From a virus: a stretch of 25,936 nt of DNA. The notes under the pieces are model-generated. The model was not told where the DNA came from. It made no database searches and saw only the letters and a program-made list of their open reading frames with translations. Numbering within the stretch: position 1 is the stretch's first letter; each line of letters opens with the position of its first letter. Shown piece after piece: positions 733 through 19,469 of the stretch. The stretch spans positions 1 through 25,936 of IMG/VR virus record IMGVR_UViG_3300024518_002956. One strand, 5' to 3'. Position numbers and translations under genes: made by a program.

Positions 733-3354
733 TTACTCTCTCCCTGGATTCAATGGGTTACGCTTCGGATAGAAGCCTGGTGTTTTGGTCGCTGTATTAG
801 CCGCCCGCGTGTCTAAGCGGGTCAGCGTTACGTCGTCTATCCAACTTGATTGATCAGCGGCTCCACTGGTGAACTTAATCGTCAGTGTAGTTGTGGCAGC
901 CTTGAATGTGAAGCTATGTTCTGTCCAGCTATTATCGCCCGTGATGTCTATAGTAGTGACCGCAGCGCCCGAAAGAACTGCGTTTATATCTTGCGCGTTG
1001 TTCTTCTCCCAGAAACTGAACGTGTAATAGTTATCAACTACAACCGTCACGTCCTGAGTCACGCCTTCATTAGCGTCGCAATTATTCAGCAAAATACTCG
1101 ACGCGCCGCTATGCTTTTCCGCGGTATCAGTCTGCGTCTCGTCAGCATCCGGTGTTCCTGTATCTGACCACCCTGTCGGAAGCGCATTGCCATCAGCGGC
1201 TTCACACCCTGGCTGCGTTACTAACTGGGCCAGCACTTCACCCTCGTCCACATACACAGTAGCTGAGTTAGTGCCCGCGCCTGCGCCTGTTATTCTCAAG
1301 TTCAACGTGATAGCCGCCTGGTCAGCCTCGAAAGCCATCTCGTAATACTTCCAGTTCAGCACCGCAAAGGTGTCAGTATTCGCGCTTGCTGTCAGATCGT
1401 TTACGCCTAAGTTATCTGCCACTACAGTATCAGCGGCATTATCATTGCACAGATATATTCCCTCTGCGTTAGGCCACTGGCTAGGATCACCGGGGTTGTT
1501 ATACAGATTAGCTATCTCTCCAGCCGCGCCCATTTCGTTGGCTGCCATTATGTCGGCGGGGTAGGCTATCCCGACATCTCTCATTTCGCCATTGAAAGTG
1601 ATCGCCGTGTCGTCCTGCCTTCTGCCCAAATAAAAATTGCCTGCATTGGACGCTGTGCCTGTAGAATCACCTGTATCAGTTATTATCGTGGTATCGTCAA
1701 CGCCATCAACAAATACCTTCGAGCCGCCAATGTTATCTCTATCCAAATATCCTGCAACAAAATGCCATTTGTTATCCCGTAGATCTATCGCCCCCCTGAC
1801 CGCTGAATCACTAGTGCCGTCTCCGTCGGTTAGCCGAATGTTAGGCCGGCCATTACCGTCAGTGAAGAAATACCAACCTGGCGTATTAAGACTACTGTTC
1901 CATTTCCCTAGAATAACTCCGGTGCCACTATCTGTATCTATTTTTACCCAAGCCCAAACCCCAACATCGTTGGTTCCTATATTGTGAATATTACCACCAT
2001 CGGCCTGCGCCGTCGCATCCAGATCAAACGCCCGCGCAAAATTGCCGCGGTCATCAAGCGACTTCCCTATCTCACGACTCAGTATAGGCGTTGCGCTGCC
2101 GTCATAGTCTGCCCATATCGTTGAATCGTCGTGCATCTGATCAGGACGTAGCCATAGGCGTGATGTGTAGTCGCCCCCACTAACAAGCGTCATTGTGGCA
2201 AGCGTTGACTCGTCGTTGTCGTCAGCGGCGGCCCATACATCCTTCAAGGACTGGCCGTCGAACTTGACAACGCTGGTGTCTTTGGTTATCGTCTGATTTG
2301 CCCCGGCAGATACATTGTCTGTGCTGGAACTCTCTTGGTCGCCATCCACCCATAAATTACGAGTGATCGTCTTGTTGGTTCCTGATACAGCGGCGCATGA
2401 GTCGTCAACGGTGACGGTCACTCCTGATACAGTAGCAACGGCTGTATATACCACGTTAGCGGGATCGTCGTCATCATAAACGACTACTTCTTCACCAGCT
2501 ACCAACTTCGTATCAGCGGCTTGAGTCAGCGTCAACGTCACTGTTGATATGGACGATATAGCTAGTTGACCAGGGTGATAGACGATACCTGTGCCTTCTT
2601 GCGAAAAATCTCCCAACATTATCGTATCTGGCGATACCACGAAAGGTGTGCCTGATCCAGAATCATAATCCGCAAGGATCTCCGAATCGTCCCAACTTCG
2701 TTTTGACACCAAAATTGTAAGTGCGCCGTTGAGTTGGCTTGCGCCGTTATTATCCGCCCCAATATGAACAGTGGTTCCGAGATCATCCATGCTATCATTA
2801 GAGAGTGCATTATCGGGTACGGCATCACGGCTTACCCCGTCCGTATAGAGTTCAATTTCATCATTTTTGAAGTCTAAGCGACAAGCTATCTGATGCCATT
2901 CACTAGCAGACCAGCCGGTTATATCAAACTCGACTTTATGCTGTGTACTATCTTTATCTAAAATTAAAAATTCCAACAGTCCCGCAGTGTCAACATGAAT
3001 AAAGAACCTATTGGAACCGGCAGACTTACGAGTCTCAAGTATATAGCGATCTATACCATCTCCAGGGGAGAAGTTCAATCTCACCCAACAGAGGATAGTC
3101 ATCTGGTTAGCGTTCCAGTTCTCCGCCACCACCGCGCTGTTCAACGACGCGCTGCCGGCTTCTTCTTGCAAGTCGTCATTATTAGCTCCACCAACATAAG
3201 GCAGTATATGGATAGCCTTCTCATCCGTAAGATCAGTAGGTGTTAGATCTATAAACCGCCATTCCTTCTCAAGCAGAATCTGACCATCTGCCGCGCCAAA
3301 GACACACAGGAAAGCTAGAAAGAACGCTATGGATATTGTAAATCGGTATCTCAT
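733..3354 (-). CDS. Large LamG-domain protein with signal peptide, putative virion appendage/adhesin
   Basis: 873 residues from ATG 3354 (AGGG 8 bases upstream; a GTG at 3360 is an alternative). Residues 1-24 form a Sec-type signal: basic MRYR, a hydrophobic core FTISIAFFLAFLCVFG, then AADG. Two concanavalin/LamG-like jelly rolls follow, at about 73-233 (WVRLNFSPGDG, WHQIACRLDF, ELYTDG) and 438-603 (VWAWVKIDTDSGTG, WHFVAGYLDRD, KVFVDGVDD). The C-terminal region, about 716-846, resembles a CBM4/9-type carbohydrate-binding beta-sandwich (YYTFSFWEKN, WTEHSFTF, WIDDVTLTRL). LamG domains are common in phage fibres and decoration proteins, where they bind glycans or assist attachment. It lies downstream of head genes with no gap, so a host-recognition appendage is the best inference. 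The signal peptide is odd for a virion protein assembled in the cytoplasm; a secreted or surface adhesin is the alternative. Confidence 0.75.
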   Translation of the reverse strand: MRYRFTISIAFFLAFLCVFGAADGQILLEKEWRFIDLTPTDLTDEKAIHILPYVGGANNDDLQEEAGSASLNSAVVAENWNANQMTILCWVRLNFSPGDGIDRYILETRKSAGSNRFFIHVDTAGLLEFLILDKDSTQHKVEFDITGWSASEWHQIACRLDFKNDEIELYTDGVSRDAVPDNALSNDSMDDLGTTVHIGADNNGASQLNGALTILVSKRSWDDSEILADYDSGSGTPFVVSPDTIMLGDFSQEGTGIVYHPGQLAISSISTVTLTLTQAADTKLVAGEEVVVYDDDDPANVVYTAVATVSGVTVTVDDSCAAVSGTNKTITRNLWVDGDQESSSTDNVSAGANQTITKDTSVVKFDGQSLKDVWAAADDNDESTLATMTLVSGGDYTSRLWLRPDQMHDDSTIWADYDGSATPILSREIGKSLDDRGNFARAFDLDATAQADGGNIHNIGTNDVGVWAWVKIDTDSGTGVILGKWNSSLNTPGWYFFTDGNGRPNIRLTDGDGTSDSAVRGAIDLRDNKWHFVAGYLDRDNIGGSKVFVDGVDDTTIITDTGDSTGTASNAGNFYLGRRQDDTAITFNGEMRDVGIAYPADIMAANEMGAAGEIANLYNNPGDPSQWPNAEGIYLCNDNAADTVVADNLGVNDLTASANTDTFAVLNWKYYEMAFEADQAAITLNLRITGAGAGTNSATVYVDEGEVLAQLVTQPGCEAADGNALPTGWSDTGTPDADETQTDTAEKHSGASSILLNNCDANEGVTQDVTVVVDNYYTFSFWEKNNAQDINAVLSGAAVTTIDITGDNSWTEHSFTFKAATTTLTIKFTSGAADQSSWIDDVTLTRLDTRAANTATKTPGFYPKRNPLNPGRE

Positions 3355-3364
3355 ATTCACAGCC

Positions 3365-4102
3365 CTATGGTACGTTTATAGTGAGCGTAACCACTTGAAC
3401 GCCCTGATCACCGGTGAACGTCACTGTCGCCTCGTAATCACCAGCGGGAACGCCAGATCTATCAACTGTTATGGTTATGGTGACGGGATCGCCGGCGGCA
3501 AGTATCTGGCCTTCAGCAGGATCAACGTCTATCTTTGATGCCATGTTTTCAGGCGATACAGCGGTAGACCAATTCAACCTTGCATCGCCATCGTTACCTA
3601 TATCCAGAGTCAATTCAGTTGTAGAACTTCCGAAATCAAGGCTTGCTTCTGTGAGCGTCATGTCGGATGTGCCTATATTAAGCACAGAATCGGCATAGAC
3701 AAGATCAAGCGCCGCCCTTGCTTCTAACGCTGCGGAATGAGAGACAAACGCCGCCGCTAACGTTGCCTTGAAAGCCGTTAAAGATATATAAAGCCTTCCG
3801 ACCGGCATCCATTGACCATCAACAAGCGCCTCGTGGCTCTCCACTACATTCCCGTCAACTAAGTCTCTGTTCGTTCTCGTATCTTCTATAATATTATTCG
3901 GGACTATGGTATCACCTGTGAAGGGTGGCCAGGGAACTGACCCAAGCCGCTCCTGCATATAGTCGTATATCTCCTGCGGAGCGTAGTAAACCAGGTCGCC
4001 AGCCTTCCATGCTGTGTCTACTTGATTGATCGTCATCGAGTAAATGCTGCCAACTAGCAACACTACACCCAATATAATTGCAAGGATTATCTTACGCATC
4101 AT
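3365..4102 (-). CDS. Signal-peptide protein with C-terminal BACON/Ig-like domain
   Basis: 245 residues; GGAG 4 bases before ATG 4102. An N-terminal signal or anchor (MMRK, then IILAIILGVVLLVG, then SIYS) is followed by about 120 residues rich in Ala and acidic residues with a helical stretch (LTAFKATLAAAF). The last 90 residues form a beta-sandwich reminiscent of BACON or related Ig-like domains: LDIGNDGDARLNWS, VDPAEGQILAAGD, TITVDRSGVPAGDYEATVTF, VVTLTINVP. BACON domains occur in Bacteroidota glycan-binding proteins and in crAss-like phages. It sits between the LamG protein and another signal-peptide protein, suggesting that all are parts of one appendage. I judge the Ig-like fold likely and the BACON assignment probable. 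Confidence 0.6.
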   Translation of the reverse strand: MMRKIILAIILGVVLLVGSIYSMTINQVDTAWKAGDLVYYAPQEIYDYMQERLGSVPWPPFTGDTIVPNNIIEDTRTNRDLVDGNVVESHEALVDGQWMPVGRLYISLTAFKATLAAAFVSHSAALEARAALDLVYADSVLNIGTSDMTLTEASLDFGSSTTELTLDIGNDGDARLNWSTAVSPENMASKIDVDPAEGQILAAGDPVTITITVDRSGVPAGDYEATVTFTGDQGVQVVTLTINVP

Positions 4103-8588: not shown

Positions 8589-9536
8589 CTATTGACCTTC
8601 TAAATACTCCTTGAGATCGAAGCCCATGTTAGCCTGAGTTTTGCCGTAGAGTGTGCCGAACTTGGCCAATTTGTCTTCCTTAGTCAGCTTAGTGTATAGC
8701 TCCATTGGAGTCGGCGTCTCTTCGGCTTCTTCGTCTTCGTCATCAGTGACGCCGGTAGTCTTCTCTACCTTGACTAGCCTTTTCAGAATATCCGCCGCCG
8801 AATCTGGCGCAGCGTCTTTATCGGCAGGCTTCTGATCTTCGGTCTTGTTGATGCCAGCGATAGCGGCAAGGATAACATCCATTTTGTCCGGTTCCGCTGT
8901 CTTCAGTACAGACCTCTCGCCTTCAGGAAGCATCTCGTTAAGCTGCGTCATTGCAGACTTGATCTCCACGACCTTCTCCGGATCCATCTCTTCTGCAGTC
9001 TCATCAGCGGCTGGAGGCTCGCCTTCTGCTGGCGTTTCTTCCTTAACCAATGACGCCTTGATGATATTCAGCGCGCTTGCTGCATCTTCTGGCGGCATCA
9101 TGTTGACGAATTTCAGTAAAGACTCCACCTCGGCTGTACGTTCTTCGCTCAGACTGGCGGCGTCTACGTTAAGTGATTTCAATAATGCTCCGAGTGTGAT
9201 CTGTTTCATCGTGTTCATTCCTTTCTTCAGGTTAAACGTTGTCTCTTGATCAAACTCGGCTCCGTCCGTCTCCGATACGGTGTAGCTTCCCATCATCATG
9301 CCCTGATCGAAATCATCCGGGGGCCATAACGAAAACCAGAAAGCTTTGAGGTCGTCTGCCTCTTCACCGTTGACGGACAAGGTCGTACCATCGAAAGTGC
9401 CGTCAGTCTTGATCGTCAATTCAGTAACTTCGCCGTCTTCTCGCTTGATAAGCAGAAACTTGCGCTTGTTAGCAGGCCTGTCCACAAGACTGACCTCATC
9501 GATGTCCATATTTTTCAACTGCTTCTTTTTCTTCAT
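8589..9536 (-). CDS. Capsid scaffolding protein with XkdF-type N-terminal motif
   Basis: 315 residues from ATG 9536, with GCGGAGGT 5 bases upstream; an earlier in-frame start 20 codons before would lie inside the hairpin region. The N-terminus KNMDIDEVSLVDRPANKRKF matches the opening of phage prohead protease/scaffold proteins. Residues about 110-315 are acidic, helical and coiled-coil-like (LLKSLNVDAASLSEER, DPEKVVEIKSAMTQLNEML), as in scaffolds, with an Asp/Glu/Pro-rich linker and a C-terminal helix (YTKLTKEDKLAKFG). It lies between the XkdF protease and the capsid gene. An in-frame ATG at 9209, with AAAGGA 9 bases before it, could make a shorter 206-residue scaffold. A strong hairpin precedes the gene. 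Confidence 0.7.
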   Translation of the reverse strand: MKKKKQLKNMDIDEVSLVDRPANKRKFLLIKREDGEVTELTIKTDGTFDGTTLSVNGEEADDLKAFWFSLWPPDDFDQGMMMGSYTVSETDGAEFDQETTFNLKKGMNTMKQITLGALLKSLNVDAASLSEERTAEVESLLKFVNMMPPEDAASALNIIKASLVKEETPAEGEPPAADETAEEMDPEKVVEIKSAMTQLNEMLPEGERSVLKTAEPDKMDVILAAIAGINKTEDQKPADKDAAPDSAADILKRLVKVEKTTGVTDDEDEEAEETPTPMELYTKLTKEDKLAKFGTLYGKTQANMGFDLKEYLEGQ

Positions 9537-9579
9537 AATTACCTCCGCGCTCTTTAGCGTAAGGTTGCGAAAATCCAAC

Positions 9580-9640
9580 AAAAATAGGGCAGACACTCAA
9601 ACTGTTAGCTTCTAACTATCAGCTTGAGCATCCGCCCTAT
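9580..9640 (-). terminator. 21-bp intrinsic-terminator-like hairpin between protease and scaffold genes
   Basis: In minus-strand RNA the arm encoded at 9620-9640 pairs fully with the arm encoded at 9584-9604 around a 15-base loop. It forms 21 consecutive pairs, 17 Watson-Crick and 4 G-U, and is followed by UUUUU (9580-9584). The same four positions would be A-C mismatches in plus-strand RNA, so it is built for the leftward transcript. It sits inside the head operon, after the XkdF gene and before the scaffold ribosome binding site. Partial termination or message-end protection is likely. Confidence 0.85.
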
Positions 9641-9673
9641 AGCGATCTCAACTACAGCTTAGAACTTGCGGCT

Positions 9674-10378
9674 CTATACCCTGTCCCCGGTGCCGCCCAT
9701 CGAATATCCGGCCAGTTCGCCGGACTTTATATCAGCCCACATCTCCCCTTCGGGAATCCTGGACCCTAGCAGCCACGTTCCTTTCTTAACCGTCTCTTCC
9801 CCCATCTGGAACTCGACAGGAGCAAGATAGGACTCCAGGACGCATACAGGAACCGCAGCGCCTTTGTGCATAACGTGATACGTCTGGCCGTTCTCCATAA
9901 AACTATACGCGGCCTTCCGTATCTCTTCCGCTGTGGCGTAATCGCCCTGTGTGTCCTCTTCGTCCGGCTCGTAAACCACGCCGAACACTATCCGCTCATC
10001 ATCATCCGATTTGGATATGATACTTACGTCTACTGCTTCTTTCTCTATATCAGGAGCGTCCTGAATGACCTCCTCTTCCTCCGATTCGTTATCTTCGTCC
10101 GGGATACGCGGCTTCAATCCGACCGCTATCTGTGCGCGAAATAACTCCAGATCAATCTCTTGCGATTTCCAGACCAGCCCGCGATCTTTCATTTCCGCCG
10201 CCAGGAACGCATAACCGGGCAACATCATATCTGTAGGCTTATTCGCTCGCTCCCGTTTCTTGAATACCTGGCAGAACTTCAAGCGATACGTTAGCAGGTC
10301 AGCGGACTCGGCTTTCGTCACATCGTCCTGTGTTAGGTCTTCGATTGGTACTAATTCTTTGTCTTCGATGCGTTTCAT
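9674..10378 (-). CDS. XkdF-like prohead serine protease
   Basis: 234 residues; GAAGAGGA before ATG 10378. Residues 1-110 are charged and partly helical, with an acidic linker (DEDNESEEEE). Residues about 115-234 match the XkdF family (putative phage serine protease): RIVFGVVYEPDEEDTQGDYA, AEEIRKAAYSFM, HVMHKG (His168/171), ESYLAP and the C-terminal WADIKSGELAGYSMGG (Ser226). These His and Ser positions are the probable catalytic residues of a capsid-maturation protease, which processes scaffold and capsid. It is encoded between the MuF-type head protein and the scaffold, as in PBSX-like phages. The first part may act as a domain fused to the protease. Confidence 0.85.
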   Translation of the reverse strand: MKRIEDKELVPIEDLTQDDVTKAESADLLTYRLKFCQVFKKRERANKPTDMMLPGYAFLAAEMKDRGLVWKSQEIDLELFRAQIAVGLKPRIPDEDNESEEEEVIQDAPDIEKEAVDVSIISKSDDDERIVFGVVYEPDEEDTQGDYATAEEIRKAAYSFMENGQTYHVMHKGAAVPVCVLESYLAPVEFQMGEETVKKGTWLLGSRIPEGEMWADIKSGELAGYSMGGTGDRV

Positions 10379-10393
10379 CGCGATTCCTCTTCC

Positions 10394-12358
10394 TTATGCC
10401 GCTTCCAGCTTCGGTCCCTGGCTGGCAAACTTCTCTGTCAACCACATACACCGGCAGTTACTCCCCCAAACAACTTTACCGTTTCGCCTGGTCAGTATTG
10501 TATGGTTCTGGGCGACTTCAACGTCATAAACGTAATCATTATATTCGACCTTTTGTGTATTCATATTGGTGAACATCCTGTATTTACTCGTCAATTCATA
10601 TACTAACCAAATATCGTGATTGATCATATATGTACCATTCGCAAATTCTTGCATCCGACCAGCACGCGCTTCAAGACGATAACTGACTGCTTTACCGCTC
10701 TTTATAATCAATTCACCAAGATCATCCGCCATACGCTTTGATGAAGTACAGTATGAAGCGCTATCGGCAAACTTAGCGTCCTTCCAGTTCTTTCCTTTTC
10801 TAACCGTTCCGTCACCAAGCCTGTAAGCATCAAGAAATATTCTGATATATTGCGGAGCCAGTCGCTTGATTTCATCAGGAATAAATTTCTCGTGACTTTT
10901 CCCGAACTGCATAAGGTGTTCACCGAGTAAATTATCAGGAATGTAAATTTTGTTTTTCCCAAGCCAGAGCTTTCTAACCGGAAGATTCTTGAGATCATCC
11001 CACATCTCGAATAAGTGAGTTTGCTGGTGAATACTAATCTGATAGCGTCCCGATTCTCGTTGGACTACGCTCCCTTCGGATAGATAGTAGCCCATCAGAA
11101 CACAATATTCATCCGCCCTGAATTGAAGCCCGTTGACGGGGATTATCAGCGGATTATTGCCCTGCCATTGCGAAGATAGATAGAACGCGGACTCGCTGTC
11201 GAGGTTATGTATTCCGTCCACAACCCTCGGTTCTAGCCGCCTGGTTCCATCCTTTTGTACACGCTTATATATGAAAAATGGATGGTCTTCCGTAACCATC
11301 ATGTCAACCGAATGCTGCTGGTTGGTGATATGGTATAAATGGCTTTCGTGATGCGTGGTTGTCGCAACGACATCATGCCATTCGAGGTCTTTAGTTTCGG
11401 GATTAAGAGTTAATGCCGACGTTCCTTTTTCGACATCCTTAATGGGCTGCCATCCGTGTTCTGTATACATTTCAGTTAATTTATCATAGCATTGCACATG
11501 GAACGGAAGCACTCCTTGACTGGTGCGTATCGTAAACTCTTCCCCATCGTGCGGATCACATATAGGGCATCTGTCAAACAGAGCAAACCAAAACACCTTT
11601 TCAACACCAGCCTCAGCGAAGCCCTGTAGTTGTCCCGCGTTCATCGCCCTGGCGGATTCTGTCCTTGCTATGCTCTCATTACGGATACGGTGTAACTTAC
11701 GATCATAGGCGGCTATCTTCTTGTCAACTTGCGCTCGTGAAAAGCCATCTATCAAAAGCTTCTCTTCCCTATTTGCAGACCATCCGATCATCTGTTGTGA
11801 AAGCCCAACCTTCGGCCTGAGTTCCCTACCGATAGCTAATCTGCTTTTGCCCTGTTCGATACCCTTCCTGATAACCTGATTGATCGCTCGTTGAGTCTCG
11901 TCAGTAACAGCAGTCACCATATTGGAGCAGATTTCATCAACGAGAGCTGCGGAGGCTACCTTCAGCGGATCAAACGGGAACGGCACGAATCCCACCAGGT
12001 CAAAGGCTATATTCCCGCCAGCGCCAAATGCGTTCGATATAGCAGGCTTCGTGATAGCGATACCGCCTGCAACGGCAAGCTCCCAGTCAACCAGGCCCTC
12101 AACGAAGATGTCCACGCCATCAGCCTTGAATATCGTGGTATCTTCCGCTGTGTCGTAACCCTCCATCACCTGCTCAGTCAGTGCCTTCATCCATTTGTTC
12201 ACAGCCACGAGAAGTTCGCGCTCCGCCTCGATCATCTTCCGGCGGATCTTGCGCTTCAGGGCGCGCACCTCGTCGGATTCGCCCTTTTGCATGTGAAGCG
12301 GTAGAAGCACTGGGGCTGTCGGGTCTATAGTTTTATGTAGTGTTGCGTCCTGACACAT
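10394..12358 (-). CDS. MuF/SPP1 gp7-type minor head protein interrupted by a LAGLIDADG intein
   Basis: 654 residues from ATG 12358 (GAGGGA about 7 bases upstream; a GTG at 12373 lacks a site). The N-extein (residues 1-289) is a MuF-family head morphogenesis protein: helical N-terminus, RNESIARTESARAMNAGQLQ and the motif CPIC (264-267)...DG...PFH. The C-extein is 20 residues. Joined, they read PFHVQ-CRCMWLTEKF, restoring the family's H-x-x-x-C-R-C ending. Residues 290-634 are an intein, which must excise itself for a functional 309-residue protein. MuF proteins attach to the portal and act in head assembly and DNA ejection. The neighbours, portal and XkdF, agree. Splicing activity is inferred. 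Confidence 0.88.
   Translation of the reverse strand: MCQDATLHKTIDPTAPVLLPLHMQKGESDEVRALKRKIRRKMIEAERELLVAVNKWMKALTEQVMEGYDTAEDTTIFKADGVDIFVEGLVDWELAVAGGIAITKPAISNAFGAGGNIAFDLVGFVPFPFDPLKVASAALVDEICSNMVTAVTDETQRAINQVIRKGIEQGKSRLAIGRELRPKVGLSQQMIGWSANREEKLLIDGFSRAQVDKKIAAYDRKLHRIRNESIARTESARAMNAGQLQGFAEAGVEKVFWFALFDRCPICDPHDGEEFTIRTSQGVLPFHVQCYDKLTEMYTEHGWQPIKDVEKGTSALTLNPETKDLEWHDVVATTTHHESHLYHITNQQHSVDMMVTEDHPFFIYKRVQKDGTRRLEPRVVDGIHNLDSESAFYLSSQWQGNNPLIIPVNGLQFRADEYCVLMGYYLSEGSVVQRESGRYQISIHQQTHLFEMWDDLKNLPVRKLWLGKNKIYIPDNLLGEHLMQFGKSHEKFIPDEIKRLAPQYIRIFLDAYRLGDGTVRKGKNWKDAKFADSASYCTSSKRMADDLGELIIKSGKAVSYRLEARAGRMQEFANGTYMINHDIWLVYELTSKYRMFTNMNTQKVEYNDYVYDVEVAQNHTILTRRNGKVVWGSNCRCMWLTEKFASQGPKLEAA
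10457..11491 (-). mobile_element. LAGLIDADG homing-endonuclease intein (345 residues)
   Basis: Begins with nucleophile Cys (CYDKLTEMYTEHGWQPIKDV, residue 290 of the precursor) and ends ...VVWGSN before extein Cys635. Visible blocks: B TEDH (356-359), C LMGYYLSEGS (421-430), E FLDAYRLGDG (508-517), F VYDVEVAQNH (610-619) and G (terminal Asn634). Blocks C and E carry the acidic catalytic positions of a LAGLIDADG endonuclease (Glu428, Asp516), so it may spread to intein-free copies of the gene. The residue before the terminal Asn is Ser, where His is usual; this can slow Asn cyclisation in some inteins. Size is normal for a full intein with endonuclease. Confidence 0.92.
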
Positions 12359-18593: not shown

Positions 18594-19349
18594 CTAGATG
18601 ATCTCGATCTCTTCACCTTTGACCGCTGGAGAGCGTCCGGGCTTTTCCAGAATCCGCTCGATTCCAGACTTGAGCCTTACGTCAGTAAACGTTCGCAACT
18701 CGTCTATAAGCCCTTGTAGCTCGTCTGGCGAAGGCTCTGGGAGTCCGTTCTTGCCGCTGTCCACGCCGATGTATACGATGTAGGGTGATGTGTCTTTTAT
18801 GTTATCCGCAAATATATGGCTAAATTTCATAACAGGCTCGATGCTAATCATTGTTTTAATACCTTGCTTGACCGCACCTAACCAATAGAGCCTATCTAAC
18901 CCAGACACAGGGACATCAGATACTGACGCCGTCACCATCGCTTTATCGGTCTCTACTGTCGTCCCGATAATACAATTTAGATACTGCAAGACAGTCCCCC
19001 ACGACCGATAACGAACAGGATCTTTAGTCAAGAACATATATTCATTATCTGGATACTTCTGGCAATGATCAAGTACGGCTTTGATCCATTCAGACTCCAC
19101 CCATTCGCCCCACATATCGCCAGAACTGCACACGAATATCTTGCGCCCAGACCCCAGGTTATCCTTCAGATAATTCTTCGTACCGTTCTCGCCATTCCTG
19201 AAAACCGGCGTGGTCATATCTTGAGTAGACCGCGCCTCTATCCGCTTGATACTGCAATAAGTACACGAATGCAAGCAACCGCCGATGGGATTCCAGCGCC
19301 ACCAGCCAGGATACATACGTCCGTTTTCTATCGGTTTCAATAAGCCCAT
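18594..19349 (-). CDS. DUF5131 (phage Gp37/Gp68) family, radical-SAM-like protein
   Basis: 251 residues from ATG 19349, chosen for GAGGTG 6 bases upstream over an ATG at 19385. Residues 20-36 (NPIGGCLHSCTYCSIKR) contain C25-x3-C29-x2-C32, the radical-SAM iron-sulfur motif. The rest follows the DUF5131 pattern: KIFVCSSGDMWGEWV, DNEYMFLTKDPVRYR, IIGTTVET, IKTMISIEPVM and YIVYIGVDSGKNG. The family is frequent in phages and mobile elements but its substrate is, to my knowledge, not established; a nucleic-acid or nucleotide modification is plausible. It sits in the accessory block, separate from the methyltransferase by two genes. Confidence 0.85.
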   Translation of the reverse strand: MGLLKPIENGRMYPGWWRWNPIGGCLHSCTYCSIKRIEARSTQDMTTPVFRNGENGTKNYLKDNLGSGRKIFVCSSGDMWGEWVESEWIKAVLDHCQKYPDNEYMFLTKDPVRYRSWGTVLQYLNCIIGTTVETDKAMVTASVSDVPVSGLDRLYWLGAVKQGIKTMISIEPVMKFSHIFADNIKDTSPYIVYIGVDSGKNGLPEPSPDELQGLIDELRTFTDVRLKSGIERILEKPGRSPAVKGEEIEII

Positions 19350-19469
19350 CCGGATCACCTCACATACGTTAAGTGTAGCCTTCATTGCGAGTTATCTAGT
19401 CCATTTCCTCAAAAACGGCCCTTACCTCCGACCCCACCCCTGCGACTATCATTTTCATTAGCGAGCAAG

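Follow-up and report, generated by a model that had tools for sequence, protein, structure and literature searches.

A Class-1 Intein with a Predicted LAGLIDADG Homing Endonuclease at a Conserved Site in a Phage MuF-Type Head Protein

Discussions of phage inteins usually center on terminases, polymerases, and helicases. The 25,936-nucleotide stretch of viral DNA analyzed here (positions 1 to 25,936 of IMG/VR record IMGVR_UViG_3300024518_002956, referred to below as the window) raised the question of whether an intein instead occupies a structural gene, namely, that of a MuF-type head protein, and whether it belongs to a mobile lineage dedicated to this site. We conclude that the insert, located at a fixed site of the phage MuF head protein, is very probably a full-length intein of class 1 whose LAGLIDADG homing endonuclease is intact; its activities are predicted from its sequence.

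Organization of the interrupted gene

The gene of the MuF (PF04233) head protein (window positions 12358 to 10394, minus strand, ATG at 12358) encodes 654 residues. The N-extein (11492..12358, minus strand; residues 1 to 289) carries the PF04233 match, ends with LPFHVQ, and has its ATG in common with the empty allele described below. The intein (10457..11491, minus strand; 345 residues, positions 290 to 634 of the protein) runs from Cys1 to Asn345. The C-extein (10394..10456, minus strand) consists of 20 residues (CRCMWLTEKFASQGPKLEAA) followed by the stop codon, Cys+1 being the first cysteine of a C-x-C motif. An earlier reading of the window, made from the sequence only, had placed an intein between HVQ and CRC of a MuF protein, and its open reading frame, frame, boundaries, and lengths (654, 345, and 309 residues) proved exact to the residue. 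The identification of Cys+1 as the first cysteine of a conserved extein motif, H-x2-C-x-C, was likewise borne out, Cys+1 being present in 77 of the 77 family members analyzed below.

The comparison of the joined exteins with PF04233, proposed in the same reading, gave the expected result, since the score rose from 29.2 bits for the whole 654-residue protein to 39.6 bits for the 309 residues of the joined exteins (cut-off, 29.6), with a match reaching through CRC. PHROGs matches were likewise to head morphogenesis and minor head proteins. The joined exteins comprise the MuF domain with its C-x2-C and H-x2-C-x-C motifs, and it is plausible from the motif that H-x2-C-x-C binds zinc. The portal gene adjoins the MuF gene in a packaging and head cassette, and the neighbors also include the terminase subunits (the small one being a weak match), an XkdF-type protease, and a virion structural protein. 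The G+C content is 43% in the insert versus 52 to 56% in the exteins.

Two other features of the window were recorded. The profile of the XkdF-type head protease (phrog_3017; PF14550) is divided between two genes, with its parts in swapped order (8589 to 10378), the protease domain ending the upstream gene (10378 to 9674) and the N-terminal SLVDRPANKRKF motif starting the downstream gene (9596 to 8589). A DUF5131 (PF07505) gene of unknown function is located at 18594 to 19385.

A natural empty site

In a relative of the window (IMGVR_UViG_3300024520_004063, designated L003), the MuF gene is an uninterrupted open reading frame of 309 codons from which exactly the 1,035 bp of the intein are missing. 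The encoded protein ends with PFHVQCRCMWLTEKFASQGPKLAA or a similar sequence, and its gene displays 94% DNA identity with the N-extein of the window. The sequence-only reading had named, as evidence that would speak against an intein, MuF relatives keeping the 345 residues as part of the mature protein; this relative lacks exactly these residues. An intein-bearing copy was found in contig IMGVR_UViG_3300024520_000114 (48,780 b), whose sequence equals that of the window throughout the 12.9 kb compared. By coordinates, the window extends ~3.8 kb past the start of that contig. Taken alone, the pair formed by the window and L003 is compatible with either gain or loss of the intein.

Anatomy of the intein

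The insert displays the anatomy of a class-1 intein, with a Cys1 nucleophile, the TxxH of block B, a terminal Asn345, and Cys+1. Block B is TEDH (11282..11293, minus strand), with Thr67 found in 72 of the 77 relatives and His70 in all of them. The two LAGLIDADG motifs of the endonuclease, LMGYYLSEG (11072..11098, minus strand) and FLDAYRLGDG (10808..10837, minus strand; PF14528 match at 215 to 261), both retain their catalytic acid, namely, Glu139 (E or D in 77/77) and Asp227 (77/77). Block F, VYDVEVAQNHTILTRR (10484..10531, minus strand), contains Asp323 (D or C in 77/77) and His330 (64/77), and block G, GKVVWGSN (10457..10480, minus strand), ends with Ser344 and Asn345, the latter being present in 77/77. 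The penultimate histidine usual in class 1 is absent, since this position is occupied by Ser344 in the window intein and by G, S, or T in 51, 25, and 1 of the family members, respectively, and by His in none of the 77. That residue is usual, yet not required, among phage class-1 inteins, as those lacking it do splice (PMC5050341). A block F histidine can stand in for it, and introducing it into one such phage intein slowed splicing (PMC5050341).

In profile searches with residues 290 to 634, which the earlier reading had also proposed, LAGLIDADG_3 (E = 2.5e-4), Intein_splicing (E = 9e-4), and intein_Cterm (E = 0.02) matched at the expected positions, but each Pfam and NCBIfam match fell just under its curated cut-off. 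A family profile built from the window intein and three distant phage inteins matched solved inteins of the PDB, the best being PI-PkoII (E = 3e-12). A chance resemblance was rejected on these matches together with the gain in PF04233 score, the precise empty allele, and the difference in G+C content. An AlphaFold model obtained with an alignment of 57 relatives reached a pLDDT of 96.6 and was used in place of the single-sequence model (pLDDT of 32). The top Foldseek matches of this model were TliVMA, PI-PkoII, PI-PfuI, and PI-SceI, in keeping with a Hint fold into which a homing endonuclease is inserted.

A family of inteins at the same codon boundary

Relatives of the intein were surveyed by profile scans of IMG/VR and of GTDB genomes. 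Among the best viral relatives, 78 of 80 loci, including the contig identical to the window, carried the intein at the same MuF codon boundary (70 assigned by a MuF HMM and 8 by the flank motif alone), as did 19 of the 43 genome relatives (18 by HMM and one by motif), the HMM having been trained on ten members of the surveyed set. In an independent check, Pfam recognized PF04233 in 14 N-exteins out of 16, and none of the shuffled controls scored (best E = 1.7). The taxa of the genome hits include Acidobacteria, Paenibacillus, Bacteroidales, Prevotella, Treponema, Hydrogenothermaceae, Methanobrevibacter, and Archaeoglobus, each host assignment being tentative because the hits are mostly metagenome assembled; Paenibacillus oralis and Prevotella vespertina are the named strains. 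Used as the sole query against genome contigs, the window intein retrieved no relative, and a MuF alignment search for further viral relatives returned none that was new.

The survey afforded 77 nonredundant full-length members. At the insertion site, Cys+1 is invariant, and His-3 and Cys+3 are found in 71 and 54 members, respectively. The first intein residue is Cys in 65 members and Ser in 12. The terminal Asn, His70, the acid at position 139 (E or D), and Asp227 are invariant, the conservation of the endonuclease motifs being partly produced by searches that were built on these motifs and that would miss mini-inteins at the site. Among 301 genomes of one host family, a recognizable MuF was found in 40 and a MuF-site intein in one; thus, occupancy of the site is low in that family.

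Phylogeny and horizontal spread

When the MuF label was mapped on a 145-intein tree, 2 changes were needed, in comparison to 48 for shuffled labels. Holding all MuF inteins together improved the likelihood relative to the free quick tree, and monophyly of the MuF inteins was not rejected (p-AU = 0.85), which falls short of proof of one clade. The sole intruder in the MuF-site group, L153, resides in another gene. In this locus and in L154, the intein lies between GIEMRAS and CEGHSD, and an XkdF protease domain is located at the end of the C-extein. The L153 intein is possibly the result of a site jump.

The MuF-site inteins have spread horizontally. Mean pairwise identity is 38% for the inteins and 21% for the exteins, with a weak correlation between the two. 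The inteins of loci L174 and L175 are 97.9% identical in DNA sequence, whereas their flanks are 48 to 56% identical, the break being located at the intein edges, as expected for homing. The L174 intein (3001 to 4005) contains an in-frame stop, despite 98% DNA identity to the intact L175 copy, which reflects either a decaying copy or a sequencing error. The intein is under purifying selection in family members, as the dN/dS ratios between four pairs of related inteins were 0.05 to 0.17, two of these pairs having nearly saturated synonymous sites. On balance, we consider it probable that the inteins located between H-x2 and C-x-C of MuF form one actively homing lineage that has specialized on one codon boundary within a structural gene, that has spread through both bacterial and archaeal phages, and that awaits description as a family.

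Proposed mechanism and alternative explanations

The precursor would splice itself, Cys1 initiating an N-S acyl shift and Cys+1, the MuF motif cysteine, then accepting the N-extein. Asn345 would cyclize with the assistance of the block F residue His330, which would replace the missing penultimate histidine, and the products would be the 309-residue MuF protein and the free 345-residue intein. Where a MuF gene is empty, the released endonuclease would cleave it across the conserved HxxCxC codons, and the intein would be copied in during repair. Cutting of the empty allele is inferred from the spread pattern only. Homing, as put forward in the sequence-only reading, fits both this pattern and the natural empty allele.

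That reading had further proposed that splicing controls head assembly. Such a conditional switch, in which splicing through Cys+1 and a metal-binding motif would tie head assembly to the redox or zinc state, draws on the dual role of Cys+1 as the cysteine of H-x2-C-x-C in 77/77 members and on a mycobacterial DnaB intein reported to sense oxidative stress (PMC6195587); the regulation idea itself dates from 2004, when it was put forward for a Methylococcus prophage (PMC517821). However, no regulatory feature was seen in the sequence, the patchy presence of the intein is that of a mobile element rather than of a needed switch, and loss of the penultimate histidine may instead speed splicing (PMC5050341). 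We therefore regard the switch as speculative and improbable. Still less credence is given to a splicing-dead relic, i.e., a decaying copy that has lost endonuclease activity or splicing. The in-frame stop of L174 and the missing penultimate histidine could be read in this way, but the window copy is open with every catalytic residue present, the histidine is lacking family-wide, dN/dS is low in the relatives, and an unspliced copy would interrupt the head gene. The least probable explanation, a Hint-type autoprocessing or bacterial intein-like (BIL) domain cleaving without ligation, or else an additional domain that the mature head protein retains permanently, can invoke a weak sequence similarity to the BIL domain 2lwy (E = 0.044) and, again, the penultimate position, but cleavage without ligation was rejected on the conservation of Asn345 and Cys+1 (77/77) and the existence of the empty allele, and the LAGLIDADG endonuclease inside the insert, the continuous MuF gene of L003 lacking exactly the insert, and the completion of the conserved motif by the C-extein speak against these possibilities as well.

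A class-1 homing intein remains the preferred explanation, and in the survey a structural-gene site hosts a large lineage of endonuclease-bearing inteins. The probable reason is that the H-x2-C-x-C codons, which supply Cys+1, are conserved across very divergent phages. The empty allele and an intein-bearing copy originate from the same metagenome, and 98% identical inteins reside in ~50% identical genes, making homing between unrelated phages directly testable.

Comparison with known systems

The sequence-only reading had considered a minor head protein to be a less usual intein host. This view does not hold, as inteins in MuF or minor head proteins were reported in 2004 (PMC517821), 2020 (PMC7468147), and 2024 (PMC11162368), and the present survey adds 77 nonredundant full-length MuF inteins at one codon boundary. 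A description of a site-specific MuF intein family was not found in the open-licence literature. The phage inteins analyzed in PMC5050341, including that of a mycobacteriophage RDF, likewise combine class-1 anatomy with a penultimate residue other than His, but their hosts, unlike MuF, are chiefly proteins of DNA modification and nucleotide metabolism, with terminases foremost. The F protein (Mu gp30) of the Mu-like prophage of Methylococcus capsulatus is, as here, a MuF-type head protein, and splicing was already suggested as a possible regulator of head assembly in that paper; unlike the window intein, the F intein was described as lacking a recognizable endonuclease and as most similar to archaeal IF-2 inteins (PMC517821). 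The Mu-like cryoconite phage AB09 also contains an intein in its minor head protein, with a reported 0.8-kb homing endonuclease and a presence that varies between populations (PMC7468147). In coliphage vB-Eco-KMB36 (OR525703; PMC11162368), the intein again precedes a motif cysteine of a MuF-type minor head protein, but the site is at the first motif cysteine (between RTSTT and CRARDG), and there is no sequence similarity to the window intein. The KMB36 intein (L010, 2784 to 4754) being at the upstream motif cysteine, two unrelated inteins use the MuF motif. Beyond the published single cases, the present survey adds a widespread site-specific lineage.
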